Shown here: piece after piece, positions 12,162 through 61,777 of the stretch
How the letters are laid out: each line of letters starts with the position of its first letter
Numbering within the stretch: the stretch's first letter is position 1
From: an uncultured Rhodocyclaceae bacterium
Lineage (GTDB): Bacteria > Pseudomonadota > Gammaproteobacteria > Burkholderiales > Rhodocyclaceae
Assembly: GCA_907163225.1 (NCBI GenBank)
Contig: OU015322.1
Location: 2,581,001-2,645,000, forward strand
DNA: 64,000 nt
Reading direction: 5' to 3'
Notes under the pieces: model-generated
The model's input: only the letters and a program-made list of their open reading frames with translations
Told to the model about the DNA's origin: nothing
Databases searched by the model: none
Program-made: the position numbers and the translations under genes

Positions 12162-12199
12162 GCTACGGTGAACCGGAAAAAACGGCCAAAAACGAAAAA
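12162..12199 (+). repeat. Dispersed GGTCRACCGG repeat, copy 1
   Basis: Intergenic copy reading ACGGTGAACCGGAAAAAA then CGGCCAAAAACGAAAAA. It ends 2 bp before the cysT ATG and so replaces the usual Shine-Dalgarno region. The core is shared with the copies at 17472, 40207 and 55441. Confidence 0.8.
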
Positions 12200-12201
12200 C
12201 C

Positions 12202-13077
12202 ATGTCTGCAAAAACGCATCGCGTATTGCCTGGCTTCGGCCTGGCGCTGGGCTATACGCTGGTTTACCTCTCGATCCTGATCCTGCTGCCGCTCGGCGGC
12301 ATGATCCTGAAAGCGTCCGAACTCGGTTTCGGGCAGATCATCGACATCGCCCTCGGCGAGCGTTCGCTGGCCGCCTTTCGTGTCACCTTCGGCGCCTCCT
12401 TCCTGGCCGCAGCGATCAATGCTTTTTTCGGCCTGATCGTCGCGTGGATACTGGTGCGTTACCCGTTCCCCGGCAAGCGCTTCGTCGATGCGCTGGTCGA
12501 TCTGCCTTTCGCGCTGCCGACCGCTGTTGCCGGCATCACGCTGGCCACGCTGTATGCCGGCAATGGCTGGCTCGGCCAGTATCTTGAACCGCTCGGCATC
12601 AAGGTTGCCTATACGCCGCTCGGCATCGTTTTCGCGCTGACCTTCATCACGCTGCCCTTTGTTGTGCGCACCCTGCAGCCGGTGATCGAGGACATCGAAA
12701 CCGAAGTCGAGGAAGCGGCTGCCTCGCTCGGCGCCTCGCGCTGGCAGATCTTCGTCAAGGTTATTTTTCCCGCAATTTTCCCTGCACTGCTCACCGGCTT
12801 CGCTCTGGCCTTCGCCCGCGCCGTCGGCGAATACGGCTCGGTGATCTTCATCGCCGGCAACCTGCCGCTGATTTCCGAAATCACCCCGCTGCTCATCATC
12901 TCCAAGCTGGAACAGTACGACGTGCTGGGCGCCACGGCGCTGGCCGTGGTCATGCTCGGGCTGTCATTCATCCTGCTGCTCAGCGTCAATCTGCTGCAAT
13001 GGTGGGCGGCGAATCGTCATCGCAACAGCGAGCCGCTCGAAGTAGCGGCGGCCAAGGCCAGTGGGGTGACGGCATGA
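12202..13077 (+). CDS. cysT: Sulfate ABC transporter permease CysT (CysU)
   Basis: Inner-membrane permease of 291 aa with about six transmembrane helices and the MetI-like inner-membrane component motif [21 protein letters not shown] near residues 172-192, which contacts the CysA ATPase. The ATG at 12202 follows a dispersed repeat and lacks a clear Shine-Dalgarno. The stop overlaps the cysW start by 4 bp (ATGA), so the two permease subunits are translationally coupled. Pairing with CysW and CysA gives the usual sulfate transporter. Confidence 0.94.
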
Positions 13078-15004: not shown

Positions 15005-15037
15005 TCTACATCGGGGAAGGGCGTCGTGGGCGGATGT

Positions 15038-15043
15038 TATAAT
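15038..15043 (+). promoter_or_regulatory. Candidate -10 element of hemA
   Basis: A perfect TATAAT lies 34 bp before the hemA GTG in the short cysA-hemA spacer. No matching TTGACA is visible at the expected distance, so promoter strength is uncertain. Confidence 0.45.
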
Positions 15044-15076
15044 CAGCCCCCGTTTCGACCGCCCAAGCCCAACCCG

Positions 15077-16327: not shown

Positions 16328-16372
16328 CGCCCGTTTTCGGGCTGCGCTCGCACGCGAATCTCCGGTATTCCC

Positions 16373-17455: not shown

Positions 17456-17471
17456 TTTCCAGCCGATGACT

Positions 17472-17506
17472 CCTACGGTGAACCGGAAAAAATGGCTGAA
17501 ATTGAA
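17472..17506 (+). repeat. Dispersed GGTCRACCGG repeat, copy 2
   Basis: Intergenic copy 17 bp after prfA: CTACGGTGAACCGGAAAAAA then TGGCTGAAATTGAA. The first 20 bases are identical to the copy before cysT. Confidence 0.8.
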
Positions 17507-17594
17507 CAGCCTTTGGTGAGCCGATAACGCTCCGCCGGGCTATGGCTTTGCGTTGAAGTGTTGCCGCCCGGTCTTGCTCGTTGGCTTGACGACC

Positions 17595-19505: not shown

Positions 19506-19529
19506 TTCCGCCGGATAAAGGGCGCCACC

Positions 19530-20231: not shown

Positions 20232-20274
20232 TTTGATTGATCGTTTTATTCGTTACTTTTTAAGGGAAACAGCA

Positions 20275-21024: not shown

Positions 21025-21056
21025 TTCCGACTGTCTCAGATTTCCTCTCGTTGGCA

Positions 21057-21089
21057 GGCGGTGGTGGCGCAAGCCCCGCCGCCTTTTTT
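21057..21089 (+). terminator. Rho-independent terminator after PEP-CTERM cluster
   Basis: GC-rich inverted repeat (GGCGG to CCGCC) followed by a run of six T, between the third PEP-CTERM gene and the TonB receptor gene. Confidence 0.75.
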
Positions 21090-21105
21090 CTTTTGTCCAG
21101 GAACC

Positions 21106-29062: not shown

Positions 29063-30451
29063 TCAGCTCAGACGCTTGCGAGCGCGGGCGATGGCGGCCT
29101 TGACCTGATCCGGCGCAGTGCCGCCGATGTGATTGCGGCTAGCCAGCGAGCCTTCCACGGTCAACACGGAAAACACGTCATTTTCGACTTGTGGGCAGAA
29201 GGCGCGGATTTCATCCAGCGTCAGTTGCGGCAGGTCGACACCCTTCTGTTCGGCTGCCTTGACGGCATGGCCGACGGCTTCGTGCGCGTCGCGGAAGGGC
29301 AGGCCCTTCTTGACCAGGTAGTCGGCGAGGTCGGTGGCGGTGGCGAAACCCTGGGTCAGCGCAGCCTTCATCGCTTCCGGCTTGACGGTGATGCCACCGG
29401 CCATGTCGGCGAAGATGCGCAGCGTGTCGGTGACGGTGTCGACAGCGTCGAACAGGGGTTCCTTGTCTTCCTGATTGTCCTTGTTGTAGGCCAGCGGCTG
29501 CGACTTCATCAGGGTCAGCAGGCTGATCAGCTGGCCGTAGACGCGGCCGGTCTTGCCGCGCGCCAGTTCCGGCACGTCCGGGTTTTTCTTCTGCGGCATG
29601 ATCGACGAGCCGGTGCAGAAGCGGTCGGCGATCTGGATGAATCCGATGCGCGGGCTCATCCACATGACCAGTTCTTCCGACAGGCGGCTGATGTGCATCA
29701 TGAGCAGGGCGCAGGCGGCGGTGAATTCGATGGCGAAGTCGCGGTCGGAAACAGCATCCAGCGAATTTTCGCAGACGCCTTCGAAGCCGAGTTGTTCGGC
29801 GACGAATTCGCGGTCAATCGGGTAGGTCGTGCCGGCCAGCGCGGCGGCGCCGAGCGGCAGGCGGTTGGTGCGCTTGCGGGCATCTGCGAAGCGCTCGGCG
29901 TCGCGGCCGAACATTTCAAAATAGGCCAGCATGTGGTGGCCGAAGGTCACCGGCTGGGCGACTTGCATGTGCGTGAAGCCGGGCATCGGCGTGGCGGCTT
30001 CCTTCTCGGCAAGATCGACGAGGGCCGAACGGAAAGCCTTGATCAGGCCCAGAATGTCGTCGATCGAATCGCGCAGGTAAAGGCGGATGTCGGTGGCGAC
30101 CTGGTCGTTGCGCGAGCGGCCGGTGTGCAGGCGCTTGCCGGCGTCGCCGACGAGCGCGGTCAGGCGCTTTTCGATGTTCAGATGCACGTCTTCCAGATCG
30201 AGCGACCATTCGAACTTGCCCGATTCGATTTCTTCGGTCACGACGGCCATGCCGCGTTCGATGTCGGCCAGGTCGGCGGCGGCGATGATGCCCTGTTTGG
30301 CCAGCATTTTGGCATGGGCCAGCGAGCCGCGGATGTCCTGGCGCCACATGCGCTGGTCAAAGTCGACCGAGGCGGTATAGCGTTTGACGAGATCGGAAAC
30401 CGGCTCGGAGAAGCGTCCGGCCCAAGTGTATTGATTGGCGTTGGAAGTCAT
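29063..30451 (-). CDS. argH: Argininosuccinate lyase
   Basis: Last step of arginine synthesis: cleaves argininosuccinate to arginine and fumarate. The 462-aa product has the superfamily signature [12 protein letters not shown] (about residues 281-292), the [12 protein letters not shown] and [10 protein letters not shown] segments, and normal length. It is divergent from algZ across 45 bp. The argH-algZ-algR neighbourhood matches that of other beta- and gammaproteobacteria. Confidence 0.96.
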
Positions 30452-30496: not shown

Positions 30497-31519
30497 ATGA
30501 CAAGTATACGGCACTTTCCCGCGACTCACCCCTTGCCCGACTGGCGCAATTTCGGGGTCATGCTGCGCGTGCTGATCGGCATCAACGTCCTGGCCATGCT
30601 CGCTGCCTTGGTACGTGCGCCCAGACTAGCTGACTGGGCCAGCCAATATGTCGAACTGGCGGCGATGGTCGAGCCCTTGCTGCTGATCAATCTCGGCCTG
30701 CTGTGCTTGTTGCGGGATATTCTGTGGCGCTTGCCCATGCGGCTCGGACAGACGTTTGTCGTTGCGCTGACCAGCGGCGTGGCGTCGGCGCTTTTTTTCT
30801 ATGTCAGTACGCTGGGATTGCTAGATTTCGATGGCGCAATGCGCGCGGTGCTGCTGACGGCGGCAGCCACGGCCTTGCTGCTCGGCTATTTTGAGTTGCG
30901 CTCGCGTGCCTTTTCGCCAGCCCAGACCGAGGCGCGGCTGGCCGCCCTGAACGCCCGCATCCGCCCGCATTTTCTCTTTAATTCGCTGAATGCCGTGCTG
31001 TCGCTGATTCGCGCCCGGCCGCAGCAAGCTGAGGCGGCGCTCGAAGCACTCTCTGATCTCTTCCGTGCGGCGATGCGCGATCCGGGCGAACTGGTCAGCC
31101 TGGCCGATGAAATTGAACTCGGCCGGCAATACCTCGAACTGGAAAATCTTCGCCTCGGCGAGCGTCTTGCGGTCGACTGGAAAATTGGGACAATTTCGAT
31201 GAATCTGCCGATTCCACCGCTGATGCTGCAGCCCTTGCTGGAAAATGCCGTTTATCACGGCATCGAACCCTCGCCAACGGGCGGGACGGTGAGCATTGAA
31301 ATCGAACAAAGCGGCGACGAACTGCGCATCGCCATCACCAACCCGACCGTCGGTCAGGCCCAGCATGCCGTTGGCAACCAGATTGCCGTGGCCAACATCC
31401 GCGAACGGCTGGCGCTGTATTACGATCTCGAAGCCCGCCTCGAAACACGAGTCGGCAAAGAAAATTACGAGGTTCGCATCGTCCTGCCATGCCAACGCCG
31501 CCATCCGCCGCCCCGCTGA
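30497..31519 (+). CDS. algZ: Sensor histidine kinase, LytS/AlgZ-like
   Basis: A 340-aa membrane kinase of the LytS family. About four transmembrane helices (residues 20-130), then a His_kinase domain with H158 in NARIRPHFLFNSLNAVLSL and an ATP-binding N-box PLLENAVYHGIEPS near 249. The frame is open far upstream, but that part is antisense to argH; the ATG at 30497 is the chosen start. Residues AVDWKIGTIS are encoded by a dispersed repeat copy. Its 3' end overlaps the response-regulator gene by 31 bp. Confidence 0.88.
   Translation: MTSIRHFPATHPLPDWRNFGVMLRVLIGINVLAMLAALVRAPRLADWASQYVELAAMVEPLLLINLGLLCLLRDILWRLPMRLGQTFVVALTSGVASALFFYVSTLGLLDFDGAMRAVLLTAAATALLLGYFELRSRAFSPAQTEARLAALNARIRPHFLFNSLNAVLSLIRARPQQAEAALEALSDLFRAAMRDPGELVSLADEIELGRQYLELENLRLGERLAVDWKIGTISMNLPIPPLMLQPLLENAVYHGIEPSPTGGTVSIEIEQSGDELRIAITNPTVGQAQHAVGNQIAVANIRERLALYYDLEARLETRVGKENYEVRIVLPCQRRHPPPR
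31165..31199 (+). repeat. Dispersed GGTCRACCGG repeat, copy in algZ
   Basis: TTGCGGTCGACTGGAAAA then TTGGGACAATTTCGA, read in frame within the kinase domain. It matches the consensus core and spacing with a few substitutions. Confidence 0.55.
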
Positions 31520-33663: not shown

Positions 33664-33914
33664 GAGGGCGGCTTGTGTCTTGTGAAGGCTAGTGTTTGAA
33701 TTCAGCGGCCGCCGTGGCGGTCAGTTGGAATAAATGGTTAGGTAGCTGCTGAGCGCAATTTCGGCTGGCTGACAACCGCAGCGTACCAGACGCTGCCGAC
33801 GTTAACTGACGACAGCGAGGCGCTATTTCAGGTTCCGGGTAGCGCAGGAAATTCGGCGTTTTTTCTGGTTGACCGCGCACCCCGGGAGTTTCCCTGATGC
33901 GCGGTCAGCGTGCA
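33664..33914. other. Spacer with one dispersed repeat copy
   Basis: About 250 bp between the hypothetical gene and pepN. It includes a GC-rich imperfect inverted repeat near 33705-33725 and a GTTAGGT heptamer at 33739. There is no coding evidence. Confidence 0.35.
33849..33878 (-). repeat. Dispersed GGTCRACCGG repeat, intergenic copy
   Basis: On the minus strand: GCGCGGTCAACCAGAAAAAA then CGCCGAATTT. It sits 36 bp beyond the pepN stop. Confidence 0.7.
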
Positions 33915-39594: not shown

Positions 39595-40631
39595 TGCCCG
39601 AAAACGATAACCCCTCCCCCGCGAACATGACCTACATCCCGGCGCCGCGCGCCAAACGGCAAGGGCCGTGGCTGATCGTGGCGATTGCCGCACTGGCGCT
39701 GGCCGGCTGGCAGTGGTTCGAGACTCGCCAGAAGCTGCTGGATACGCAGCAGGAAGTCAGCCGCAAGCTGGCTGATTTCGATACCGGCAGCAAGGAAGAC
39801 CGCGGCGCCCAGAAGCAGACGCGTGAGCAGATCGACGCCCTGCAAACACGGCTCGGTGCGCTCGACGGCAAGCTGGCTGAATTCCAGGCCCAGTCGGCCA
39901 CGCTGCAGTCTCTGGTGCAGGACATCGCACGCAGCCGCGAAGAATTCGCCTTGCTCGAAGTGGAGCAGGCCGTGACGCTGGCCGGCCAGCAACTGCAACT
40001 GGCCGGCAATGTGCCGGTCGCCGTGCTCGCCTTGCAGTCCGCCGATGCCCAACTCGCCCGGCTGGATCAACCGCAATACCTGCCATTGCGCAAGGCCGTC
40101 GCCAAGGATCTGGCTTGCCTCACCGCCTTGCCCTTTGTCGATACGCCGGGCCTCAGCCTGCGTCTGGAGCAGATCATTCTCGGCATCGACAAGCTGCCGC
40201 TGGCATCCTACGGTCGACCGGAAAAAACGGCTGAAAATGAAAAAGCGCCAGCGGCGTTGTCGTGGTGGCAACAGACCAGCAGCGCCATCTGGCAGGAGCT
40301 GAAGGGGCTGGTTCGCATCCAGCGTCTTGACCGTGAAGATTCCGCCCTGCTCGCCCCCGGCCAGGGCTATTTTCTCCGTGAAAATCTCAAGCTGCGCCTG
40401 CTCAATGCCCGCCTCTCGCTCTTCTCGCGCGATCAATCGACCTTCCGCAATGAATTGAAGGTGTCGCAGGATTTGCTGGCCCGCCACTTCGAGGCCAACG
40501 ACAAGGCGGTGCAGGCTGCCCAAGCAACGCTGAGCCAGATGACGGCGACTGAGATCAACGTCGAGTTGCCGACGCTGGGTGACAGTCAGGCCGCGTTGCG
40601 CAGCTTGCGCCAAGGCAAGGAAAAGCGGTGA
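39591..40631 (+). CDS. hemX: HemX, membrane-anchored uroporphyrinogen-III C-methyltransferase-like protein
   Basis: A 346-aa inner-membrane protein with one N-terminal transmembrane helix (about 25-42) and a long coiled-coil-prone periplasmic domain. Despite the historical name, the HemX family lacks the methyltransferase fold. The ATG at 39591 overlaps the hemD stop, and the stop overlaps the hemY GTG (GTGA). Residues about 206-218 (SYGRPEKTAENEK) are encoded by a complete dispersed-repeat copy and look like a linker. Confidence 0.88.
   Translation: MMPENDNPSPANMTYIPAPRAKRQGPWLIVAIAALALAGWQWFETRQKLLDTQQEVSRKLADFDTGSKEDRGAQKQTREQIDALQTRLGALDGKLAEFQAQSATLQSLVQDIARSREEFALLEVEQAVTLAGQQLQLAGNVPVAVLALQSADAQLARLDQPQYLPLRKAVAKDLACLTALPFVDTPGLSLRLEQIILGIDKLPLASYGRPEKTAENEKAPAALSWWQQTSSAIWQELKGLVRIQRLDREDSALLAPGQGYFLRENLKLRLLNARLSLFSRDQSTFRNELKVSQDLLARHFEANDKAVQAAQATLSQMTATEINVELPTLGDSQAALRSLRQGKEKR
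40207..40244 (+). repeat. Dispersed GGTCRACCGG repeat, copy in hemX
   Basis: CTACGGTCGACCGGAAAAAA then CGGCTGAAAATGAAAAA, in frame in hemX. It has the perfect palindromic core CGGTCGACCG and is nearly identical to the intergenic copies before cysT and after prfA. Confidence 0.8.
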
Positions 40632-41837: not shown

Positions 41838-42734
41838 TCAGGCCCAGTCTTGCGGCTTGAGAAAGACGTCGTAGAGCTCGGCTTCCGGCGTGCCGGCTTC
41901 CGGTTGCCAGTCGTAGCGCCATTTGACGATAGGCGGCATCGACATCAGGATTGATTCGGTGCGGCCGCCTGATTGCAGGCCGAACAGCGTGCCGCGGTCC
42001 CAGACCAGATTGAATTCGACGTAACGACCCCGGCGGTAGGCCTGGAAATCGCGCTCGCGCTCGCCGTAGGGTACATCGCGGCGCTTGGCTAATAACGGCA
42101 GGTAGGCTTTGGTGAACGCGTTGCCGACGGATTGCGTCAAGGCAAAGCAGCGTTCGAAGCCACCTTCGTTCAGGTCATCGAAGAAGACGCCGCCGACGCC
42201 GCGGGGCTCGTTGCGGTGCTTGAGGAAAAAGTACTCGTCGCACCAGTGTTTGTATTTCGGATAAACCTCGGCGCCAAAGGGCGTCAGGGCGTCCTTGCAG
42301 GTCTGGTGAAAATGGGCGGCATCTTCGCGTTGACCGTAGTAAGGCGTCAGATCCATGCCCCCGCCAAACCAGAACACGTCTTCTTCGCCCGGCTGGCTGG
42401 CGACAAAGCAGCGCACGTTCATGTGTGCTGTCGGGCAGTAGGGGTTGCGCGGATGGAGCACGAGCGAAACGCCCATCGCTTCCCAGGCGCGGCCGGCGAG
42501 GTGGGGGCGGACGGCAGTGGCCGAAGCGGGCAGGGATTTGCCGGTGACGTGCGAGAAATTGACGCCGCCCCGCTCGAAGAAATTGCCTTCCTCAATCAGC
42601 CGCGAAATGCCACCACCGCCTTCCGGACGATCCCAGCTGTCGGTGCGGAAAGGCTGGCCGTCGAAGGCTTCAAGTTCGGCCACGATGCGGCCTTGCAGTC
42701 CAGTAAAAAAATCCTTGAGGCGGGTGCTGTCCAT
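41838..42734 (-). CDS. hemF: Oxygen-dependent coproporphyrinogen-III oxidase
   Basis: Aerobic decarboxylation of coproporphyrinogen III to protoporphyrinogen IX. 298 aa of normal length with [17 protein letters not shown] and [22 protein letters not shown], the highly conserved family blocks. It is the last gene of the long minus-strand series, 79 bp after purD and behind the purD terminator, and faces hemY. An oxygen-dependent enzyme indicates at least facultatively aerobic growth. Confidence 0.96.
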
Positions 42735-42813: not shown

Positions 42814-44091
42814 TTAGCGGTTGATGGCGCGGAATCCAATGTCCTTGCGGAACTGCATGCCGTCAAACTGGATCTGTACGGCGGCCTCGTAGGCGGCCTT
42901 CTGGGCCAGCTTGACGTTCTCGCCCAAAGCTGTGACGCACAGGACACGGCCACCGTTGGTGACGACCTTGCTGTCCTGATTGGCGGTGCCGGCATGGAAA
43001 ACGTGCGCCGCTTCACCAAAGCTGTTGCCCGCCGGCAGGCCGTGAATGACATCGCCTTTTTTCGGCGTCTCAGGGTAGTTGGCGGCGGCAAGCACAACGC
43101 CCAGCGCAACGCGGCGATCCCACTCTGCTTCAACCTGATCGAGCGTGCCGGCGATGGCGTGCTCAAACAGATCGACCAGATCGGATTTCAGGCGCATCAG
43201 GATCGGCTGGGTTTCCGGGTCGCCCATGCGGCAGTTGAATTCCAGCGTCTTGACCGAACCGTCCTTGCCGATCATCAGGCCGGCGTAGAGGAAACCGGTG
43301 AAGGGGATGCCATCGGCCGCCATGCCGCGCACGGTCGGCAGGATGATCTCGCGCATCGCCTTGGCGTGCACTTCCGGCGTGACGCAAGGGGCCGGGGAAT
43401 AGGCGCCCATGCCGCCGGTGTTCGGGCCCTGGTCGCCGTCGAAGATCCGTTTGTGATCCTGGCTGGAGGCCAGGGCCAGCACGTTCTTGCCGTCGACCAT
43501 GACGATGAAGCTGGCTTCCTCGCCGTCGAGGAATTCCTCGATGACGACGCGAGCGCCGGCATCACCCAGCTTGTTGCCGGAGAGCATCTCGTCGATTGCG
43601 GCGTGAGCTTCTTCCAGCGTCATCGCGACAACGACGCCCTTGCCGGCAGCCAGGCCGTCGGCCTTGATGACGATGGGCGCGCCCTTTTTATCGATGTAGG
43701 CGTGTGCTGCGGTCGACTCGGAAAAAGTCTCAAAACCGGCCGTCGGTATGTTGTGGCGCGCCATGAAACGCTTGGCGAAATCCTTGGAGGATTCGAGCTG
43801 GGCGGCTTCCTTGGTCGGGCCAAAAATTTTCAGGCCACGGGCCCGGAAAATATTGACCACACCGGCCGCCAGGGGCGCTTCCGGGCCGACGACAGTGAGA
43901 TGAACCTTGTTCTGTTCGGCAAAATCAGCCAGCGCTTCCGGGTCGGTGATGTTGACGTTCTCCAGCTCCAGCTCGCGCGCCGTGCCAGCATTGCCCGGGG
44001 CTACGAACACCTTCTGCATGCCTGGTGTCTTGGCCAGACGCCAGGCCATGGCGTGCTCGCGGCCGCCGGAACCGATTACCAGTAGTTTCAT
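42814..44091 (-). CDS. purD: Phosphoribosylamine-glycine ligase (GARS)
   Basis: ATP-grasp enzyme joining glycine to phosphoribosylamine in purine synthesis. 425 aa with the N-terminal LVIGSGGREHAMAWRL, VGPEAPLAAG, and ATP-grasp segments VIKADGLAAGKGVVVA and EFNCRMGDPETQ. Normal length. It follows purH on the same strand across a 90-bp spacer with a large inverted repeat, and a strong terminator follows it. Confidence 0.97.
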   Translation of the reverse strand: MKLLVIGSGGREHAMAWRLAKTPGMQKVFVAPGNAGTARELELENVNITDPEALADFAEQNKVHLTVVGPEAPLAAGVVNIFRARGLKIFGPTKEAAQLESSKDFAKRFMARHNIPTAGFETFSESTAAHAYIDKKGAPIVIKADGLAAGKGVVVAMTLEEAHAAIDEMLSGNKLGDAGARVVIEEFLDGEEASFIVMVDGKNVLALASSQDHKRIFDGDQGPNTGGMGAYSPAPCVTPEVHAKAMREIILPTVRGMAADGIPFTGFLYAGLMIGKDGSVKTLEFNCRMGDPETQPILMRLKSDLVDLFEHAIAGTLDQVEAEWDRRVALGVVLAAANYPETPKKGDVIHGLPAGNSFGEAAHVFHAGTANQDSKVVTNGGRVLCVTALGENVKLAQKAAYEAAVQIQFDGMQFRKDIGFRAINR

Positions 44092-44181: not shown

Positions 44182-45774
44182 TTAATGCCTGAAATGACGC
44201 GCCCCGGTGAATACCATCGCCAAGCCATGTTCGTCGGCCGCCGCAATGACCTCCTCGTCGCGCATCGAACCGCCCGGCTGAATCACCGCCTTGGCACCGG
44301 CGGCAGCCAGCACGTCTACGCCGTCGCGGAACGGGAAGAAGGCATCCGAGGCGACGACCGAACCGTTGAGGTCGAGACCGGCGTGCTGGGCCTTGATGCT
44401 GGCGATCTTGGTCGAATCGACGCGGCTCATCTGGCCGGCGCCGACGCCGAGGGTCATGCCGTTGCCGCAGAAGACGATGGCGTTGGACTTGACGAACTTG
44501 GCGACGCGCTCGGCGAAGAGCAGGTCTTCGATCTGCTGCGCGGTGGGCTGCACCTTGGTGACGATCTTCAGGCCGGACGCTTGCGCCGTGAAGTCGTCCG
44601 GCGTCTGAACCAGCAGACCGCCGCCGACGCGCTTGAATTCCAGCGTGTTCAGTACGCGGGAAATCGGCACAACGAGGACGCGCAGGTTCTGCTTCGAGGC
44701 CAGCGCGGCCTTGGCTTCAGCCGTGAAGGACGGAGCGATCAGCACTTCGACGAAGTGCTTGCGCTCGTTCATGGCATTGACCACGTCGATGCCGACTTCA
44801 CCGTTGAAGGCGATGATGCCGCCGAAGGCCGAGGTCGAGTCGGTCTTGAAGGACTTTTCATAAGCGCCAAGCAGGGTGCCATCGATGGCCACGCCGCACG
44901 GGTTGGCGTGCTTGACGATGACGCAGGCCGGGGCGTCGAAGGACTTGACGCATTCCCAGGCGGCGTCGGAGTCGGCGATGTTGTTGTAGGACAGTTCCTT
45001 GCCCTGCAACTGGCTGTAGGCGGCGATGCTGCCGGCGACGGGATTGGTTTCGCGGTAGAAGGCGGCGTTCTGGTGCGAGTTTTCGCCGTAACGCAGGATT
45101 TCGGTACGGTCGAAGGCTAGTTGCAGTTTGGCCGGGAAGATGGCCGGGACCGGCGCGGCTTCGGCCGGCTTGGCTTCGGCGCCTTCATCAAGACCGGTCA
45201 GCCAGTTGGCGATCATGCTGTCGTAGCGGGCGGTGTGCGTGAAAGCCTTCTTGGCCAAGCCGAAACGGGTCGCCAGTTGCAGTGCGCCGCCATTGGCCTT
45301 CATTTCGGCGAGCAGCGGAGCGTAGTCTTCCGGATCGGTGACGATGGCCACGCCGTTGTAGTTCTTGGCCGAAGAACGGACCATGGCCGGGCCGCCGATG
45401 TCGATGTTCTCGATGGCGTCTTCCAGCGTCACGCCAGCCTTGGCAATGGTCGCGGCGAACGGGTAGAGATTGACGCAGACCAGGTCGATCATCGGAATGC
45501 CGTGCGCTTCGATGGTCGCCAGATGTTCCGGCAGATCGCGACGGGCCAGGATGCCGCCGTGCACTTTCGGGTGCAGGGTCTTGACGCGGCCATCGAGCAT
45601 TTCCGGGAAGCCGGTGTAGTCGCCGATTTCGGTTACGGTCAACCCGGAATCTCGCAACATTTTGGCAGTGCCGCCGGTGGACAGCAGCTTGACGCCTTGG
45701 GCGGCGAGGCCCTGCGCGAATTCGAGGACGCCGGTTTTGTCGGAAACGGAAATCAGTGCTTGCTTGATGGTCAT
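44182..45774 (-). CDS. purH: Bifunctional AICAR transformylase / IMP cyclohydrolase
   Basis: Last two steps of IMP synthesis. 530 aa: N-terminal MGS-like cyclohydrolase domain ([29 protein letters not shown]) and C-terminal formyltransferase domain ([21 protein letters not shown], and [11 protein letters not shown]). Complete and of normal length. It lies 5 bp after fis, so dusB-fis-purH-purD is probably one transcript. Confidence 0.97.
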
Positions 45775-48036: not shown

Positions 48037-49182
48037 TCAAGGCCAGGCGCGAGCGCCCCAGATCATGCGCTTGGCGACGAAGTGGCGGGCCGGCGGGCAG
48101 ATGTCCAGCGCGAACAGGCCGAGGCCGCGGGCTAGTTTGAGTGGGCCGAAATCGTTGGAGAAGGTGCGGACGATCTGGTCGGTGAAGAAGGCGCTGCCGC
48201 GGCGGTCGAGGCGGCGGCTGGCGGCGTACCTTTCGAGGCTTCCGCGGTCAACACCATTTTTGAGCAAATTTTCGGACAGCTGCCAGGCGTCACGGATGCC
48301 GAGATTGAAGCCCTGGCCGGAAACCGGGTGCAGGGTTTGCGCAGTGTTGCCGATCCAGACTTCGTTGCCTTTGACCAGTGTGTCGCGCAGGCGAAGAAAT
48401 AGCGGGAAACGGCTTCGCTTGCCCGGTTTTGCGAAGCGCATGCGTTGGCCGAACTGGGTTTGCAGGGCGGCGATGAAGGCATCGTCGTCCATCGCCATCA
48501 CGGCATCGGCCTTGGCAGGCGGCAGGGTGAAAACGATGGAGTATTGGTCGCCGAGCGGGAGCAGGGCGAGCGGGCCGTCGGGGGTGAAGCGTTCCCAGGC
48601 GCGTTTGTTGTGGCCAGGCGTCGGGGTGACTTCGCAGATGACCGCGTGCTGTTCGTAGTCGCTGACCTTGACTGCCGGGTCGTCGCCCGGCGTGCCTTCG
48701 GCGTGGACGAGCAGTTTGGTCTGGATGGTGCGCAATTGGCCGGCATGGCGCAGCGCTACCGTGACGCCGCCGTCGTCCGGCGTGATGTCGAGGATTTCAG
48801 CTTCGGCGAGCACGGCGTCGGCGGCCAGATTGGCAGCCAGCGCACCGGCCAGGTCGCGGTAGCGAACGACGTAGCCGAGGGCGGGAAGAGCGTATTCCTG
48901 GTGGTCGATCAACGTCCGGCCGAAGCCGTCCTTTTGCGAGATGTGGATGGTTTCGATCGGCGTCGCGGCGCGCGTCGGCCAGCTGTTGATCTGTTCCAGC
49001 AACTGGCGAGCGCCGTGTGACAGGGCGAGGGCACGCGGGTCTGTTTGCTGGGCTTGCAGCGGTCGACGGTCAATCAGCAATGATTTCCGGCCACCGGCGG
49101 CGAGCGCCAGGTGCAGCGTCATGCCGACCGGGCCGGCGCCGATGATCAGGATGTCGACGTGTTCGATGACATGCTCAGTCAT
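48037..49182 (-). CDS. ubiH: UbiH/VisC-family FAD-dependent ubiquinone-biosynthesis hydroxylase
   Basis: A 381-aa flavoprotein monooxygenase. N-terminal dinucleotide fold ILIIGAGPVGMTLHLALA and C-terminal FAD-contact block WIGNTAQTLHPVSGQGFNLGIRDAW. It catalyses a ring hydroxylation in ubiquinone synthesis; the position (C4, C5 or C6) cannot be told by eye. It overlaps pepP by 8 bp, the classic pepP-ubiH pairing. Confidence 0.92.
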   Translation of the reverse strand: MTEHVIEHVDILIIGAGPVGMTLHLALAAGGRKSLLIDRRPLQAQQTDPRALALSHGARQLLEQINSWPTRAATPIETIHISQKDGFGRTLIDHQEYALPALGYVVRYRDLAGALAANLAADAVLAEAEILDITPDDGGVTVALRHAGQLRTIQTKLLVHAEGTPGDDPAVKVSDYEQHAVICEVTPTPGHNKRAWERFTPDGPLALLPLGDQYSIVFTLPPAKADAVMAMDDDAFIAALQTQFGQRMRFAKPGKRSRFPLFLRLRDTLVKGNEVWIGNTAQTLHPVSGQGFNLGIRDAWQLSENLLKNGVDRGSLERYAASRRLDRRGSAFFTDQIVRTFSNDFGPLKLARGLGLFALDICPPARHFVAKRMIWGARAWP

Positions 49183-51322: not shown

Positions 51323-51920
51323 GATGGACTCCTACAAATAGTGTTCCAGAATCACCTGCTTGCGGGCCGGGGCGGCGGCGATGATGGATTCGGCGGCGGC
51401 GATGGCGAGCTGTTCGGCTGCGACTTCGGCGACGATGCGCTGTTGCTCGGCGAGAGGTGGAACAGGCACCTTGATGTTGCGCATGATCGTGGCGTTGATG
51501 TTGGCCTGGTTGATCGATTTGGACGCCTTACCCTTGGCCTCCTGTTGGAAAGCGGCGGAATTCATCATCAGGGTCAGGAACAGCGGCAATACCTTGGCGG
51601 TATCCGGCACGACGCGCACAAGGTAGGAGGCAAAGCAATAATCGCCGTCGAGGTCGAACAGGCCGGTCTTGCCGACATGCTCGATGCTGTTGGTGCGGTT
51701 GAACAGTACGTCACCCTTGTTCAGCCGGTATTTGGCGAACTCGGCGGCGGAAATGTCGGCGCACTTCATGCTGCCGTTGTCGGCCATGCGCCCGGCGATG
51801 ATTTCGTTCATGCGGAAAATCTTGTAGCCGACGCCGGCCTCGTTCATCTTTTCCGACAGGCCGTATTGCACGGCCAGCGCCAGGCTGTCGATGGGCTGCA
51901 GGGCCGTGGCCGATTCGTAA

Positions 51921-51950
51921 ATTTGGCTAATTTCCCGGTTGACCGTAGCA
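51921..51950 (-). repeat. Dispersed GGTCRACCGG repeat, copy between the two recognition domains
   Basis: Minus strand: GCTACGGTCAACCGGGAAAT then TAGCCAAATT, read in frame as ATVNREISQI in the helical spacer between the two target-recognition domains. Confidence 0.6.
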
Positions 51951-52562
51951 ATTGCTGTGGCGATGGTGGTTTGGGCGGCGGCGACTTCGTTATCGACGGC
52001 TTGGCATTCGGTGACGATTTTGTGCTGGATGGGGAGGGGCGGGAGGGAGATCTCCTTTTCCCGCAAGTCGCTGCTGGATATGGATTCAAAGGTGGCGCCT
52101 TGCTTGCCTTGAAAGCGCGGCTTTTTCTGGCTGATAAATTCGTACAGATAACCGTTGTTTAGGCGCTCGTTTCCGCGAATGGCAGCTAGGCCACGACCAA
52201 TGCAAATTTCAGGGTATGGGTTGATATTTACGTCGCCAACCGGGGCGCGAACACTCATTAACACGTCGCCGAGTATTGCCTTTTTAGTGGTGTTGGTTGT
52301 CCAAGTGCTTGGCGGGTTCAATGCCAAGGGGCCGAAATCCTTTTTGCCTTGATAGAACGGCAAACCTTCGCCTTTGTCGTTGTAATAAGCAGATTCCGGT
52401 GATTGGCCCGCGATAACTTCTGAAACTGTACCTAGCTTGACTGAAGGCCAGCGGCTTTCAATCGGCGCTAAAGCTTTTGGAGAAAGTCCAATCTGCTTCT
52501 CAAAAGTCACCCGTGAGAAATCCAGCATGTCCTCCAGCCGCGCCGTGCTGGCGTAGGGCTTT

Positions 52563-52596
52563 AGATTTTCGGGCCAATTTTCCGGTTGACCGTGGA
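52563..52596 (-). repeat. Dispersed GGTCRACCGG repeat, copy at the M-S junction
   Basis: Minus strand: CCACGGTCAACCGGAAAATT then GGCCCGAAAATCT, read in frame as HGQPENWPENL at the boundary between methyltransferase and specificity parts. Confidence 0.7.
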
Positions 52597-54944
52597 AGTT
52601 CGCGGCGATCAGCGCATTGAGCTTTTCCGGGTTGTCACGATCATTTTCGTCGTAGAGCACGGTCTGGTGCCGGCCTTGGGCGTCCTTGACGAGCTTGATG
52701 CCTTCGTCGCCCTTGGCGCTGGACCAGTCGTAGCCGAGGAATTGCTTTTGCGCCTTGGTGTCGCTCGGGCTTTTGATGATGAGCACGGGGTTGGGCTGGT
52801 CGCTGGCCAGCACGAAGTGCAGCAGTTTGTCGCGTTCGATGGCGTGCACGAAGGCGAGGTAGCGGCGGTCGATTTCGGCGTCTTGCTCCGCCTGCGGCTG
52901 GCTGTTGAATTTCTTTTGTTTGTAGAGGTTTTTGATCTCGGTGCTGTCGTTGAAGGCGGAGGTGTAGGCGTCGAAGTAGTCGGCGGTGCACCACGGGCCG
53001 TTGGCGTCGCCTTGCAGCAGGGTTTTGTAGTCGGCGGCGGGGGCGCCGATGTGGGCGGCGTAGCGGTCGATGAGGGGCTCGTCTTGATACACCGGCTGGT
53101 TGGGGTCTGGGGAAACACCAGCGGCAAACCACTCGGCGACGCGCTCGCGGTAGTGCTCGGTGGTGTCCGGCGCGGTGGCTTTGCGGCGCAGGAAGAGGGT
53201 GACGGTGTTGGTGCCGGTTTTGCCGAAGGTGCCGCTGCCGAATTCGGCGATGGCAACAATGTCGAAATACTGGATGAGGATTTCGCGGGTCTTGATGTAG
53301 GTACCGTTGCCGTTGCTGAGGATGGAGGCGGGCAGGATGATGGCGGCGATGCCGCCGGTTTTGAGCAGTTGCTTGGCGCGCTCGATGAAAAAGCATTCGA
53401 TGCTGTTGTTGGTGTCGAGCGCGCTGGTGGTGTCGGTGAGCGCGTAGGCGGCGCGTTCGGCTTCGGGCAGGGTTTCGAGAAAGCCTTTGACGCTGTAGGG
53501 CGGGTTGGCGACGAGGATGTCGAAGCTGTTGTCGGCGATTTGTGGGTGGCTGGGGTGGGCCTTGACCAGCGCGTCGCCGTAGCAGATGGCGATGTCGCGC
53601 TGGCCGTGCATGAAGGCGGCGACCTTGGCGACTTTGGAGAGCCGGTATTCCTTTTCGATGCCAACGATGGCCTGGTGGTAGGTGGCGATGTCGGCCTGCG
53701 GGTGGGCGGCGGCGACGAGCGGCTTGATCTGGCGGGCGAGTTCGGTGAGGAAGTGGCCGGCGCCACAGGCGTAGTCGATGACTTTTGGCGGCGTGGCGTG
53801 CTCGGCGACGAGGCTTTGCAGCGGCAGGCTCATCATGATGAAGCGGCAGATGGGGAGCGGCGTGAAGTATTGGCCTTCGCTCTGCTTGACGCCCTGGTCG
53901 AGAAAGCCCTCGAAGAGGTCGCCGAGAAACTGGCTGTTGCCGGCTTCGTTGGTCAGGCGGATGTCCTGCCACATCTGGATGACTTTGAGGAGGACTTCGG
54001 CGTTTTGGTAGAACAGCTTTTCGTTGTGAACGTCGATGAATGAAAAGTCGTTATTGGTGAAGAATTTTTGTTGCAGGAAGAGCTGCCAGACGGCGCGCTG
54101 GGTGGCGTCCGGGTTCTGCTTGATGAAGCGCATGGCGTTTTGCACGGCGCTGCGGTCGATGTAGGTGATCGGTTCGCCGAGAAACTTGCCCATGCCTTCC
54201 TTGTAGAGTTGCTGGAGGCGGTCGAAGAGGTCGAAATGGCTGTCGTAGGCGACGCCTTTCCAGTAGAACTTGAGATCTTGCGGGTTGAGTGTTTCGTCGA
54301 CGAGCTTGCAGAGCAGCAGGTTGACCAGTTTGTCGAAGGCGTTTTCACGGCCGGAGACGTTGTGCTGGCGCAGGATGGTGGCGAAGGCGTGGTATTGCTT
54401 TTGCTGATCGCTGGCGCTGATGGTGTCGAGGTCGTCCAGCGAGTATTGATCCTTGCCGATCTGGTAGGTCTGGATGCTGGGCTCGAAAATGCCTTTGGTG
54501 GTGTAGTCGAGCTTGTAGGTGTCGCGCCAGATGGCAAAACGCTCTTTGACGTCGGTGGCGGTCTTGAAGCCTTTGAGGCCGGTGTCGTCGAGGTATTTGT
54601 CGTTGTCGCGGTGGGCGACGATGTGGCTGGTGTAGGTCAGCGCGCCATCGACGAGGTCGGACGTGTAGAGGCAGAGAAACTGGGTTTCGCTGATCTGCTG
54701 GGCGTAGCTGAAAAGCTGGTCGCCGTCGTTGAGGGTTTTTTTCCAGGCACGGGTGAATTCGCTGCCGGCGGTTTTGCATTCGATGATGAGCAGCGGCTTG
54801 CCGGCGTTGTCCTTGACGAGGATGTCGGCGCGGCCGCCGCTCATGCCGTGGCCGAGTTTGAAATGTGGTTCCAACTCGATGTTGGCTGGTTTGTAACCCT
54901 TTTCCAGCAGCCGATTGACGCACTCCAAAACAACAAAATTTTCG

Positions 54945-56840
<1,896 letters not shown>

Positions 56841-56931
56841 AAGCGGGCTGGGTTCTGTTCGTTGTAAAATGGCGCGATTTTAACACTCGGGTTCCGGCCG
56901 TTCCGGTGTCGCCCCTCAACTGATCGCATCG
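56841..56931. promoter_or_regulatory. Divergent amgK/lptD promoter region
   Basis: A 91-bp spacer that must drive both the amgK-murU series and the lptD-surA-pdxA-ksgA operon. AT-rich segments (TTGTAAAAT and TTTTAACAC) could be -10 regions, but no element is convincing. Confidence 0.4.
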
Positions 56932-59478
56932 ATGACCGGTTTTACCCGCCGCCCGCTCGCTGTTTTCGTCTGCTGCCTGTTTGCCGGGGTGCAGGCGAGC
57001 CATGCCGTCGATGTGCCGCGCCTTTCCTTGCCGCCGGGGACTTTGGGTGTTGCCACTAAGCCAGCGCCAGATGTGGCAATGCTGCTGGCCGACGCCGATG
57101 TGCCGCTGCGCCTGCGTACTGAGCGCAAGTTCAACGTGATGGGCAAGAAAAAGGCTGCGTCGGTCTCGGTGGTTGGTATTGAAACGCCGGCCGTGCTGAA
57201 AAAAGACACGGTTTACCCGCTTTTCGTGACGGCCGATCAGATCGAAGGCCAGGCTGACGATTTGACCGTGGCCGAGGGTAATGTCGAGCTGCGCAAGGTG
57301 GGGTCGCTGATTTTGGCTGATCGCGTGACCTATCGCATTCTGGACGACGAAGTCGAGGCTTTTGGCTCGGTGCGTGTGCTGCAGGATGGCGCCGAAATTG
57401 ATACGCCGCATCTGAAAATGAAGCTCGACGAGCAGCTTGGCTCGGCCGAGGATGTGAAGTACCACATCCTCAAGGAGACGGCGAGCCGCTTCTACAGCCC
57501 GACGCAGATTGTGGTGACGGCGGCGAGCAGCAACGCCATTACCTCCGGCGCGCCGATGATGCTCAATGTGGCGAACAGCTACGGTCTGCCGACCCAGTCG
57601 CCACCGCAGCGCCCGGTTGAAGCCAATGGCCGGGCCGAGCGTGTCGATTTTGAAGGCGAGAATCAATTCACGTTTTTTTCGAACACCTTTTCGACCTGCA
57701 AGCCGGATCGGGATGACTGGTATCTGCAGGCTTCGGAGACGCATCTCGACTACGATCGCAACGAAGGAACGGCCAGCCACGCCTCCCTGTGGTTTGGCGG
57801 AATGCCTCTGTTCTACTCGCCGATCGTATCTTTTCCGCTGAACGGCCAGCGCCGCTCCGGCGTGCTGCACCCGCATTTTTCGACCTCGACGCGGAGCGGT
57901 CTCGATTTCACGCTGCCGTACTACTGGAACATCGCGCCGAACTATGACCTGACGCTCTACCCGCGCTACATGAGCAAGCGCGGCTTCCAGCTCGGGGCCG
58001 AGGCGCGCTACGCCGATTTCAACTATCAGGGCATGTCGCGCGTTGAGTATCTGCCGAACGACGAAGTGCGGAATCGTCAGCGCTACGGCTATCGGATCGA
58101 GCACCAGCATGTGCTCGGGCGGGGCTTTTCGGCCGCCGTTAACTGGAACGGCGTTTCGGATGACTTCTACTGGCAGGACTTGTCATCACGCCTGTTGCAG
58201 ACATCCCAGGCGCAGTTGCCGAAACAGGTGTCGCTCAACTACACGCCATCGCCCTGGCTGCAGTCCAGCCTTCAGGTCTTGCGCTATCAGACGCTGCAAC
58301 TTGACCCGGCCGTTCCCGTCAGCCGCCCCTATTTTCTGGAGCCGCAGCTGAACGTTCTCGCCTATCGGCCGGACGTGTTGAATATGGATTTCAGCATGAT
58401 CGGCCAATACTCGCGTTTTACTCATGTGGACGCGGGAATGGATCAGGGCGACCGCGTTGTCATCTACCCGCAGCTTTCCATGCCCTTCGTCCATCCGGCC
58501 TTCCAGTTCACGCCCAAGGTCGGCCTGCACGTGAGTCAGTACTCGCTCGACCGACGCGATCCGCTGACCTTGGGTCAGTCCAACAGCATCAGCCGCGTCC
58601 TGCCGACATTTTCGCTGGATTCGACCGTGATCTTCGAGCGCGAAGGTGACTGGTTCGGCAACGGCTATATTCAGACGCTGGAGCCGCGCCTCTATTACGT
58701 GAATATTCCGTACAAGGATCAGAGCCAGATTCCGCGTTTTGATACGGGCTTGTCCGACTTCAATTTCGCCCAGATATTTTCCGAGAACCGTTACAGCGGT
58801 TTCGACCGGATCAACGATGCCAATCAGCTGACCGCGGCCGTGACAACGCGCCTGCTGGATGGCGAAACCGGTGCCGAGCGGTTCAAGGCGATGATCGGCC
58901 AGCGCTATTACTTCAAGCCGCAGCAGGTTTCGATCCCCGGTGAAACGACCCGCCAGAACGATTTTTCCAACCTGATCGCTGCGGTCAACGGCCTGGTTGC
59001 GCCAAAAACCTATATGGATCTGGCGTGGGAATACAACTACAGGGATAACCTCAGTGAGCGCTTTGCCGCCGGTGTCCGTTTCCAGCCGGAGCTCGGCAAG
59101 GTGCTGTCGGCCAGCTATCGTTACACGCGCAACCCGCTGACGACCCTGGCAACGGTCGATCAGATCGACATCGCCGGCCAGTGGCCGCTGTCTTCGAAAT
59201 GGTATGCGGTTGGCCGCTATAACTTTTCGTTGCGCGACCAGCAAACCCTTGAATCGATTGCCGGCGTGGAGTACAACGCGGGATGCTGGGCCGTGCGCCT
59301 GGTTGGCCAGCGGCTGGCAGCGATTACCGGCAAGCCGAACGACACCCTGTTTTTCCAGCTTGAGTTCAACGATTTCGGTAGTATCGGTACCAATCCGATT
59401 GGCCTGCTCCGGCGCAGTATTCCCGGTTACGGAAAAATCAACGAACTGCCCAATAGCAGCCTGCTCACGACCCAATGA
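56932..59478 (+). CDS. lptD: LPS-assembly protein LptD
   Basis: Outer-membrane barrel that inserts lipopolysaccharide into the outer leaflet with LptE. 848 aa: signal peptide to about residue 25 (SHA), a periplasmic OstA/LptA-like beta-jellyroll (about 85-220, with [20 protein letters not shown]), and a C-terminal barrel with aromatic-rich strands. Cysteines in FSTCKPDRD and NAGCWAV could form the inter-domain disulfide. The stop overlaps the surA ATG by 4 bp. Confidence 0.95.
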
Positions 59479-60788
59479 CCACCATGACCCCACTTATTCG
59501 TCACCTGATTGTCCTGATCTGCTGCCTTGGCGGCCTGGTGCATCCTGTCTCCGCCGCGCCAGATCCGGCCATCGAGGCCGACCGCATCGTGGCTGTCGTC
59601 GGTGACGAGGTTGTCACGTACTACGACCTGCGCACCCGCCTGACCGCTGCGCTCAAACAGTTGCAAAAGCAGGGAACGCCGCTGCCGCCGCAAGATGAAC
59701 TCGAGCGTCAGATGCTGGAGCGCCTGATCATGGAGCGGGCGCAACTGCAATATGCCCGTGACTCCGGCATGAAAATCGACGACGCCCAGCTCGACCAGGC
59801 GATCGGCCGAATTGCTGCCGGCAACAAGATGACGCCACAGCAGTTTCGTTCGGTACTGGAAAAGGATGGCGTGCAGTACGCGCAATTCCGCGAGGAAATC
59901 CGCAGCGAGATGGTTACCGTCCGCCTGCGCGAGCGTGAAGTGGACAGCAAGCTGATCATTTCCGACGGAGAAATCGACAACTACCTGGCTGAGCAAACGG
60001 CAAAAGGTGGCGGCGAAGAATATCAACTGGCGCACATTCTTCTGCGCGCGCCGGAGTCGGCCAGCCCGGAACAGTTGCAAAAACTGCGTTTGCGCGGTGA
60101 GCAGGCTCTGAAACGGGCGCGGGCCGGCGATAATTTCGCCGAATTGACCGCGGCCTTCTCCGATGCGCCGGACGCCCTGAAGGGCGGCGATCTTGGCTGG
60201 CGTCCGCTGGATCGTCTGCCGGGACTCTACGCCGAAGTCAGCGCTCGTCTGGAACCCGGGCAAATCAGCGAACTGCTGCGCTCATCGGCAGGTTTCCACA
60301 TCATCAAGCTGCTCAACAAGCGCGGCGGTTCTGCGCCGGCTTCCGTGCAACAAAGTCGTGCCCGCCACATCCTGATCCGCATCAACGAAATTGTTTCCGA
60401 AGCGGAAGCCCGGCGCAAGCTGGAAAGCGTGCGCGAACGCATCACCAACGGCATGGATTTCGCGGAACAGGCCCGCCTCTACTCGCAGGATGGTTCTGCT
60501 GCCAAGGGCGGCGATCTCGGCTGGCTGGCGCCGGGTGATACCGTGCCGGAATTCGAGCGCGCCATGGATGGACTCAAGATCAGCGAAGTCAGCCCGGTTG
60601 TCCAGTCGCCCTTTGGCATGCATCTGATTCAGGTGCAGGAACGTCGTGAACAAGACGTCTCGGTCGAGCGCAAACGCGGCGTTGCCCGTCAGGCGCTGCG
60701 CGAACGCAAGCTGGACGAAGCCTACCAGGACTGGCTGCGCCAGTTGCGCGACCGAACCTACGTCGAGAACCGACTCGAAGAAAAATGA
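59475..60788 (+). CDS. surA: Periplasmic chaperone and peptidyl-prolyl isomerase SurA
   Basis: Periplasmic chaperone for outer-membrane proteins. 437 aa: signal peptide (cleavage near SAA, residue 28), N-terminal chaperone domain ([15 protein letters not shown]), and two parvulin domains (about 175-275 with [10 protein letters not shown]; about 290-390 with [10 protein letters not shown] and [18 protein letters not shown]). The start overlaps lptD and the stop overlaps pdxA, each by 4 bp. It would serve LptD, the TonB receptor and the trimeric adhesin encoded in this window. Confidence 0.96.
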
Positions 60789-61777
60789 TGTTGCCGGTCA
60801 TTGCCGTGACCAGCGGCGAGCCGGCCGGTATCGGGCCGGAGTTGTGCCTGCGTCTGGCCGGCTATGAAGGCGGCGCCCAGCCGGTCATTCTCGGTGACCG
60901 CCATCTGCTTGAAGCACGGGCGGCACAGCTTGGGCAGGCGGTGAATTTTCGCGATTTTTGCCCGAAAAACCCGGTCGACCGCAGCAGGCTTGATGTCCTG
61001 AATATTCCACTCGCGGTACCCGCGCAGGCCGGCGTGCTTGATGCCGCCAACGGCCATTACGTGCTGGCCCTGCTCGACCGCGCGCTGGCCGGCTGCCAGA
61101 CCGGCGAGTTTGCCGCGATGGCCACCGCCCCGGTGCACAAGGGTGTCATCAACGAAGCCGGCGTGCATTTCACCGGCCACACCGAATACCTCGCCGAAAA
61201 GACCGAGACGCCGCTCGTCGTCATGATGCTGGCCGGCGACACCGAGCGCGGCCCGCTTCGCGTCGCGCTGGTCACCACGCACCTGCCGCTGAAAGACGTA
61301 TCCGCCGCGATCACCGCCGATGTACTGGAAAAGACCCTGCGTATCCTGCACGCCGACCTGCGCGGAAAATACGGCCTGGCTGCCCCGCGCATCCTCGTTG
61401 CCGGCCTCAACCCACACGCCGGCGAAGGCGGTTACCTCGGCATGGAAGAAATCGAAGTCATCACGCCCGTGCTCGAAAAACTGCGTGCCGAAGGCATGGC
61501 ACTGTCCGGTCCCTATCCGGCCGACACCATGTTCACGCCGCCCATTCTCGCGCAGGGTGATGCCGTACTCGCCATGTACCACGACCAGGGACTGACTGCG
61601 CTCAAGTACGCCACCTTCGGCAAGGGCATCAACGTCACGCTCGGCCTGCCCATCATCCGCACCTCGGTCGATCACGGTACAGCGCTCGAGCTGGCCGGCA
61701 CCGGTCGGGCCGACCCGGGCAGCCTGTTTGAAGCGGTGGCGGAAGCGGCCCGCATGGCCACAAGGAAAATGCAATGA
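60785..61777 (+). CDS. pdxA: 4-hydroxythreonine-4-phosphate dehydrogenase PdxA
   Basis: Pyridoxal-phosphate biosynthesis; oxidises 4-phosphohydroxy-L-threonine. 330 aa with family blocks [52 protein letters not shown] and [12 protein letters not shown], which contain the zinc-ligand histidines. It is coupled to surA and ksgA by ATGA overlaps. Part of the variable segment ([15 protein letters not shown]) coincides with a dispersed-repeat copy. Confidence 0.96.
60943..60984 (-). repeat. Dispersed GGTCRACCGG repeat, copy in pdxA
   Basis: Minus strand: CTGCGGTCGACCGGGTTTTT then CGGGCAAAAATCGCG. The core is perfect, but the A-tract is replaced by T; it is otherwise aligned with the consensus. Confidence 0.6.

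Follow-up and report, generated by a model that had tools for sequence, protein, structure and literature searches.

Here we describe a dispersed 32-bp repeat with a palindromic core in a 64,000-nucleotide stretch of DNA from an uncultured Rhodocyclaceae bacterium (assembly GCA_907163225.1, contig OU015322.1). The stretch, which we call the window, spans positions 2581001-2645000 of a genome assembled as one contig of 3,463,890 bases (the source genome, handle G000), whose genus we infer to be Azonexus/Dechloromonas (Rhodocyclales). We propose that the repeat acts as a DNA uptake signal, a word bound by a receptor, by which the species' own DNA is singled out for natural transformation. Judging from sequence comparisons, we put the probability of this reading at about 0.78. 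The repeat would then probably belong to a third, independently evolved uptake-signal system in Azonexus/Dechloromonas, with two or more dialects around a common inner core, CGGTC, and a layout that converged with that of the uptake signal sequence (USS) of the Pasteurellaceae. We regard a third system as the most likely explanation because most of the testable hallmarks published for uptake sequences are found: copy number in a defined taxon, no orientation bias, enrichment between genes, origin by substitution, clade-linked dialects and depletion in acquired DNA.

The repeat was first noticed in a sequence-only reading of the window, as a palindromic motif with at least a dozen copies. It is real, and commoner than that. 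A strict pattern (CGGTCRAC, two free bases, G, five A/T, seven free bases, four A/T) occurs 455 times in the source genome, and the reversed pattern does not occur. Copies lie on both strands, as had been noted, and the strands are balanced (225/230). The consensus 32-mer with at most three mismatches has 65 matches in the genome (29/36 by strand; reversed pattern 0); two of these matches are found when the window alone is searched, compared to none in 100 shuffles. A score matrix, built from 30 copies of the 32-mer matches and then iterated, finds 184 matches in a 664-kb sample of the source genome (97/87 by strand; reversed matrix 0). On the window it finds 20 copies with more than 14 bits. 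Weak scores (about 14 to 20 bits) are less sure than the pattern counts because the matrix was partly trained on the same sequence. The seven most over-represented 10-mers of the sample (count of at least 15, masked N excluded) are all pieces of the motif. Rfam, at gathering scores, has no match within the window.

Could the motif be a by-product of composition and codon usage? That 54 of the 96 coding copies lie in one reading phase would fit such an origin. A favoured phase is also expected because some peptides tolerate the word better than others. Comparing the genome-wide count with chance, as the sequence-only reading had proposed, puts it far above the controls. The reversed pattern, the reversed matrix and the 10-mers, which occur 44-79 fold more often than expected from composition alone, reject a composition artefact. 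Relatives of similar composition do not carry the motif either. We give this explanation practically no chance.

The 20 copies in the window are the following, with strand, context and matrix score; gap columns are from alignments with G035, the nearest relative by PepN (89%).

2583..2614, plus strand: in an enoyl-CoA hydratase family gene; 36.4 bits.
6515..6546, minus strand: over the start of a small gene, encoding MKKIALFFLLTV on the other strand; 39.0 bits; new.
12166..12197, plus strand: outside called genes, with a seeming degraded remnant in G035; 54.9 bits; 8 gap columns.
17476..17507, plus strand: intergenic, right after a release factor gene; 49.4 bits.
29158..29189, plus strand: antisense in argH; 27.8 bits; gap-free against G035; new.
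31170..31201, plus strand: in frame in a histidine-kinase gene, LAVDWKIG; 34.4 bits; gap-free against G035.
33844..33875, minus strand: just downstream of pepN; 26.3 bits.
35130..35161, minus strand: in frame at the second pepN site, AVNGKFEPK; 42.3 bits.
36279..36310, minus strand: in frame at the first pepN site, AVNGKKAPFSE; 36.7 bits; gap-free in 30 orthologues.
40211..40242, plus strand: in frame in hemX; 49.2 bits; 4 gap columns against G035.
42305..42336, minus strand: weak copy in an oxygen-dependent coproporphyrinogen oxidase gene; 17.4 bits; gap-free; new.
43710..43741, plus strand: antisense in a phosphoribosylglycinamide synthetase (purD-type) gene; 24.3 bits; gap-free; new.
45636..45667, plus strand: weak copy, antisense in an AICARFT/IMPCHase (purH-type) gene; 14.9 bits; gap-free; new.
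48245..48276, plus strand: antisense in a UbiH/UbiF-family gene; 21.7 bits; gap-free.
51914..51945, minus strand: in frame in a fused restriction-modification-specificity (R-M-S) gene; 41.4 bits.
52561..52592, minus strand: second in-frame copy in the fused R-M-S gene; 46.5 bits.
55002..55033, minus strand: upstream of the R-M-S gene; 33.5 bits.
55444..55475, plus strand: perfect 32-mer (0 mismatches), antisense in murU; 59.6 bits; 8 gap columns against G035.
58982..59013, plus strand: weak copy in an lptD-like gene (family match below the cut-offs); 15.2 bits; gap-free.
60950..60981, minus strand: antisense in pdxA, with a first AT tract that is all T; 25.3 bits; 1 gap column.

All 12 copies that the sequence-only reading had called clear or partial are recovered by the matrix above 14 bits. 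Its weak candidates at 2580, 48243 and 58979 are recovered as well; those at 14968 and 50112 are not. Five copies go beyond its list (cores at 6515, 29158, 42305, 43710 and 45636, marked as new). Family searches confirm the hemX, murU, pepN and pdxA contexts. The copy that had been placed in algZ does lie in frame within a histidine-kinase gene, for which the name algZ comes from the sequence-only reading. The R-M-S assignment holds for the M and S domains, which score over the cut-off, and falls just short for the R-type N-terminal domain, which scores just below it. Two copies are in frame in this fused type I R-M-S-like gene (window 51332-54928, minus strand). Type I R-M-S genes are often horizontally acquired; the two in-frame copies thus suggest long residence or spread by transformation.

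The motif consists of a core and two AT tracts. In the core, CGGTC[A/G]AC (columns 0 to 7), the fixed positions are 97-100% conserved in coding and other copies alike. The tracts (columns 12-15 and 23-26) are A/T in 94-100% of the copies in genes and in 91-100% elsewhere. Outside genes the tracts are mostly A, and within genes A and T are mixed; hence it is the AT character that is kept and not the base. The centres of the core, first tract and second tract are about 10 and about 11 bp apart, approximately one helical turn each. Just upstream of the core there is a weaker preference for T.CTA or T.CTG. Beyond about 8 upstream bases the columns resemble background, save for a 27-bp unit beside about 12 of the 184 copies.

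Copies are enriched between genes. Our gene calls are home-made: they classify 77% of the sample as coding and overlook some genes, such as the one for the histidine kinase near window 31170. By these calls, 96 of the 184 copies lie wholly within genes, where length alone would predict 141; another 14 straddle a gene boundary and 74 are intergenic. Of the 53 copies with more than 45 bits, 41 are not wholly inside a called gene. Only one match falls in a 37-kb stretch whose products, judged by eye, include EF-Tu, EF-G, RNA polymerase subunits and ribosomal proteins. Scarcity there would be expected if genes under constraint resist the word. In the 664 kb, three pairs of copies face in opposite directions less than 150 bp apart.

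Within the genomes sampled, the motif is restricted to one genus. Among 76 genomes of the genus, 12 have more than 200 strict copies and the others 0-112 copies of this first dialect; the reversed control yields 0-1 per strand. Across the class, the strict pattern matches in 25 of 369 genomes including the source genome, and no other genome has more than two copies. The 32-mer matches in 17 of 60 relatives and, across the order, in 4 of 399 genomes (both counts include the source genome); all of these belong to the same genus. The seven members of the family from other genera within the order sample have no match.

Some genomes carry a second dialect. An unguided search, in which 7-mers upstream of paired AT tracts were counted and which a dialect without AT tracts would escape, recovers the same core in the source genome and in G439; in G029 and G452 it yields another, extended core. 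Dialect 2 consists of ATGCTACGGTC followed by the same tracts (consensus AATGCTACGGTC). It has 396 copies in G452, 354 in G464 and 310 in G029, genomes with only 10, 7 and 5 strict copies of dialect 1, respectively. The dialect-2 form also has 16-60 copies in G442, G455, G443, G439, G454 and G445, where the examples listed are mostly dialect-1 copies starting ATGCTA. The three dialect-2 genomes form one clade with 100/100 support in a midpoint-rooted pepN tree of 30 genomes. On the same tree, the nine genomes rich in dialect 1 require three changes. Both pepN sites read GCTACGGTC in the dialect-2 clade; most other genomes read GTCACGGTC or GTTGCGGTC. No convincing core was found upstream of tract pairs in G035, G433, G437, G458, G446, G018 and G024 (60-200 kb each). 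Pooled over six of these seven genomes, CGGTC with tracts occurs at 7 sites in 460 kb compared to 2.0 for permuted cores; weak traces of the motif therefore exist there. In G435 and G436 many of the copies listed read CGGTCGACCGGTAAAAA, a possible third variant with GGTAAAAA and a T that opens the first tract.

Phased AT tracts beside a palindromic core are a typical feature of DNA that bends and binds protein. Hence the motif could instead be the site of a protein inside the cell, either one with a role in chromosome organisation or segregation or a global regulator, and have spread by chromosomal selection and not by uptake. The enrichment outside genes relative to length would fit this explanation too. 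However, near-absence in G035 and rarity across the genus would be odd for a word needed for chromosome upkeep, and the lack of strand bias and the two dialects with the same tracts also speak against it. A regulator site is also unlike a word of about 32 bp with a near-fixed core and about half of its copies inside genes. We consider an intracellular role unlikely.

How did the copies arise? The sequence-only reading had likened the motif to Rickettsia palindromic elements, which insert in frame, and had suggested orthologue alignments as a check for clean insertions. For this check we compared 200 kb of G035. Of the 72 matches in a 264-kb stretch of the source genome, 23 could be aligned across the motif. 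In called genes, 15 of 18 copies are gap-free, and among the other copies 2 of 5. Once the histidine-kinase copy is moved to the coding class these numbers become 16 of 19 and 1 of 4. Identity to G035 is 67% within the coding motifs and 83% in their flanks. Thus the coding copies are mostly without indels against orthologues that lack the motif.

The two sites in pepN extend this comparison to the best 30 of 75 matching genomes, including 9 of the 12 that are rich in dialect 1. The first site is gap-free in all 30 rows, and all nine rich genomes have a motif match there. The residues at this site are VDG in 17 of the 30 rows; the nine rich rows read VNR (six), VNL, VNG and VDG. The differences at this site are lineage-specific substitutions. 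At the second site, G030 alone among the 30 genomes has an indel, an insertion of 12 nt that falls within the final part of the 32-bp footprint. From these alignments, coding copies appear mostly to have arisen by point substitution and not by insertion.

A small mobile element, of the Rickettsia palindromic element (RPE), repetitive extragenic palindrome (REP)/RAYT or miniature inverted-repeat transposable element (MITE) type, would have to insert, also in frame. Rickettsia palindromic elements and REP/RAYT repeats are dispersed, have a palindromic core, are found in frame in some genes, and insert. Our motif shares the dispersal, the palindromic core and the in-frame copies. Hundreds of dispersed near-identical copies are what such an element would leave, the strong copies are slightly more alike than independent columns allow, and 3 of 18 coding copies and 3 of 5 other copies are gapped against G035 (3 of 19 and 3 of 4 when reclassed); the murU copy is one of the three coding exceptions. 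Yet, unlike these elements, the motif in genes was mostly built by substitution. The alignments with G035 and the 30 pepN genes largely refute insertion for the coding copies, and most of them were rejected as mobile elements on this ground. Copying would also not produce the A/T freedom of the tracts in genes, and outside about 8 upstream bases the columns are background-like. Flanks of the 184 copies match one another in few pairs (37 at E 1e-3); the pairs examined among these are due to the 27-bp unit, to a gene with tandem repeats, to an inverted pair or to short matches that look like chance. We therefore think a mobile element very unlikely.

The 27-bp unit beside some copies is the part that does look inserted. 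A unit like CGACCATAGAAACAACGGCTGGCCC lies exactly 27 bp upstream of 12 of the 184 copies (up to 9/25 mismatches). Among 12 shifted registers used as a control, one gave two matches and the others none. The unit is CGACCATAGAAACAACGGCTGGCCC plus two bases, stands directly upstream of the motif in exact register and is present twice in tandem at two copies. The arrangement resembles a motif that has been split between CTRCG and GTC by an insertion of 27 or 54 bp. The unit occurs with both dialects (G452 is a dialect-2 genome), at the following positions:

Source genome, C1: 2144438, 2152906, 2562246, 2670162, 2688760, 275013, 1647302 and 1808632.
Other genomes, single examples: L332:2709 (G452) and L346:3148 (G449).

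Words can also spread within a cell without uptake, as recombination or replication hotspots (Chi-like words or selfish drivers of gene conversion). A conversion driver could be built by substitution in genes, genome-wide and strand-balanced, just as our motif is. Known Chi-type words are short, strand-biased and conserved across related genera. Our motif, in contrast, is long, balanced and patchy. We rate the chance of a hotspot word as slighter yet than that of a mobile element.

Two stretches of DNA that appear to be newly acquired lack the motif. In two motif-rich genomes, G454 and G002, comEC is split by 43.3 kb and 33.7 kb of DNA. The G+C content of these inserts is 0.56 and 0.52, compared to 0.61. 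Because they split a gene and have a lower G+C content, we take them to be recent and foreign. They contain 0 and 0 copies, compared to 9.65 and 7.61 predicted from their surroundings (Poisson P 6e-5 and 5e-4). These are two of 10 split comEC genes. In the Neisseriaceae, an island with about sevenfold fewer native DNA uptake sequences (DUS) is reported (PMC7371117). The other idea of the sequence-only reading, an uptake-type sequence, thus gains support from the architecture, the dialects, the absence from two inserted stretches and the strand balance.

Two families of uptake signals serve as a comparison. According to a 2025 paper, only Pasteurellaceae and Neisseriaceae are known to discriminate DNA via such signals; in its account, a USS is made up of a core and two AT-rich regions and reaches 32 nt, and a DUS is an uninterrupted word of at most about 13 nt that lacks AT tracts (PMC12616744). 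The Pasteurellaceae USS has been characterised in its architecture, its substitution origin and its subclade types, and gap-free alignments showed that its copies are not insertions (PMC1626085). Among the open-access papers listed in our searches, no title or partial abstract mentions an uptake sequence for Rhodocyclales or Dechloromonas.

Our motif resembles the Pasteurellaceae USS (Hin and Apl types) in layout: a core of about 9 bp, two AT segments about one helical turn apart and a total length of up to about 32 bp (PMC1626085, PMC12616744). It also shares the presence on both strands, in and between genes, the substitution origin and the subclade types. The cores differ, CGGTCRAC or ATGCTACGGTC here compared to AAGTGCGGT or ACAAGCGGT in USS. 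So do the hosts: ours are G+C-rich members of a beta-lineage, in which the motif is patchy within one genus and has a lower density. Because core and host differ, we do not class the motif as a Pasteurellaceae USS. The Apl-type USS 10-mer ACAAGCGGTC contains CGGTC as well, possibly by chance. With the Neisseriaceae DUS, our motif shares dialects within a lineage and depletion in acquired islands, as reported for DUS (PMC7371117, PMC3630211), and a ComP-family minor pilin is present here. Unlike DUS, which have no AT tracts, the motif has two.

If the motif is an uptake signal, it might work as follows. The CGGTC core would be the part recognised by a DNA receptor on the cell surface, for which a minor type IV pilin is the most likely candidate. 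The two AT tracts, on the same face of the helix, may help the DNA to bend or kink while the retracting pilus pulls. Uptake and recombination would favour fragments that bear the word. This bias in uptake could then spread point mutations towards a better site wherever the protein tolerates them.

The source genome has candidates for parts of this machinery. ComEC is encoded in an open frame of 858 aa. Of 19 pilins found, 16 were scanned, and only the pilin at 1087435-1087872 matches Pfam ComP_DUS (E=1.5e-13), the family of the Neisseria DUS receptor; the matching protein is a minor pilin. Against solved structures, this ComP-like pilin matches other pilins, mostly via its N-terminal region.

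Several observations weigh against an uptake signal. Firstly, most genomes of the genus lack the motif or have few copies; the sister G035 is among them (two strict copies), and at least one of its sites resembles a degraded remnant. Secondly, neither ComEA nor comEC integrity follows the motif. ComEA (TIGR00426) has no match over the cut-off in the complete source genome; the lone match lies below the cut-off in an 834-aa frame, which is presumably Tex. ComEA over the cut-off is lacking in 4 of 15 rich genomes, including the source genome, and in 5 of 61 others (Fisher p 0.07), which is the wrong direction. With a broken or partial comEC in 4 of 15 rich genomes and in 16 of 61 others (p=1), the integrity of this gene shows no link to richness.

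Thirdly, the pilins do not track the motif either. In queries with FimT and the ComP-like pilin over the 76 genomes, similarity does not follow the presence of the motif; for the ComP-like pilin this is a difference from DUS. The ComP-like pilin of the source genome is closest to that of a motif-poor genome (G006, 60%); with those of the other rich genomes it shares only 34-45% identity in matches that span most of its length. The source FimT is also closest to motif-poor genomes. Because the queries were limited to these two proteins, no receptor can be named with confidence.

Lastly, some properties of the copies themselves fit an uptake signal less well. Besides the gapped copies described above, perfect CGGTCAACCGG cores number 64 and single-mismatch cores 112; this ratio of 0.57 exceeds the 0.03 expected but stays under the 1 that an uptake signal would surpass. 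Spacing is no more regular than random (CV 0.93, null 0.98, P 0.37; 72 matches in 264 kb), unlike that reported for the Pasteurellaceae USS. Among the 71 copies with more than 40 bits, the fraction of pairs alike at 29 or more of 32 positions is 0.029, compared to 0.014 (sd 0.004) in shuffled columns, and two column pairs exceed the 95% limit for mutual information. Because of these like pairs and linked columns, the motif positions are not fully independent.

Azonexus and Dechloromonas come from soil, water and sludge (the habitat is partly taken from sequence records) and are not known as pathogens. If the motif is indeed an uptake signal, then the convergence in layout would mean that AT tracts mirror a physical step common to DNA uptake by pili. 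If the signal has decayed repeatedly among sister species, self-recognition would be seen to come and go within one genus. In a third case, whose sequenced species carry the signal, lack it or differ in its form, the start of a signal, the change of dialect and the loss of specificity would become testable, and so would the idea that AT tracts are a mechanical requirement of uptake. There may be practical uses as well: the motif could aid the delivery of markers into these environmentally important bacteria, and islands free of it could be read as recent acquisitions.

A few loci deserve mention of their own. Pieces of comEC, in order and about 2 to 64 kb apart, occur in G454, G433, G458, G002, G018, G397, G005, G467, G468 and G029, with break points that recur near profile positions 146, 163 and 590. 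From these positions, comEC looks like a repeated landing site for mobile elements. In G035 (C1:1958422-1959913), comEC lies in two different frames, possibly due to a sequencing error. The source genome has 20 kb with zero motif copies (C1:440001-460000, L207), whose proteins include, by eye, a plasmid-type DNA-binding protein and a metal-transport-like protein; this stretch may be a recent island. Finally, five identical motif matches, 2160 bp apart, lie in a gene whose tandem repeats are long and near-perfect (source genome C1:3122832-3131472, L222), and these identical copies make up five of the 184 sample matches.

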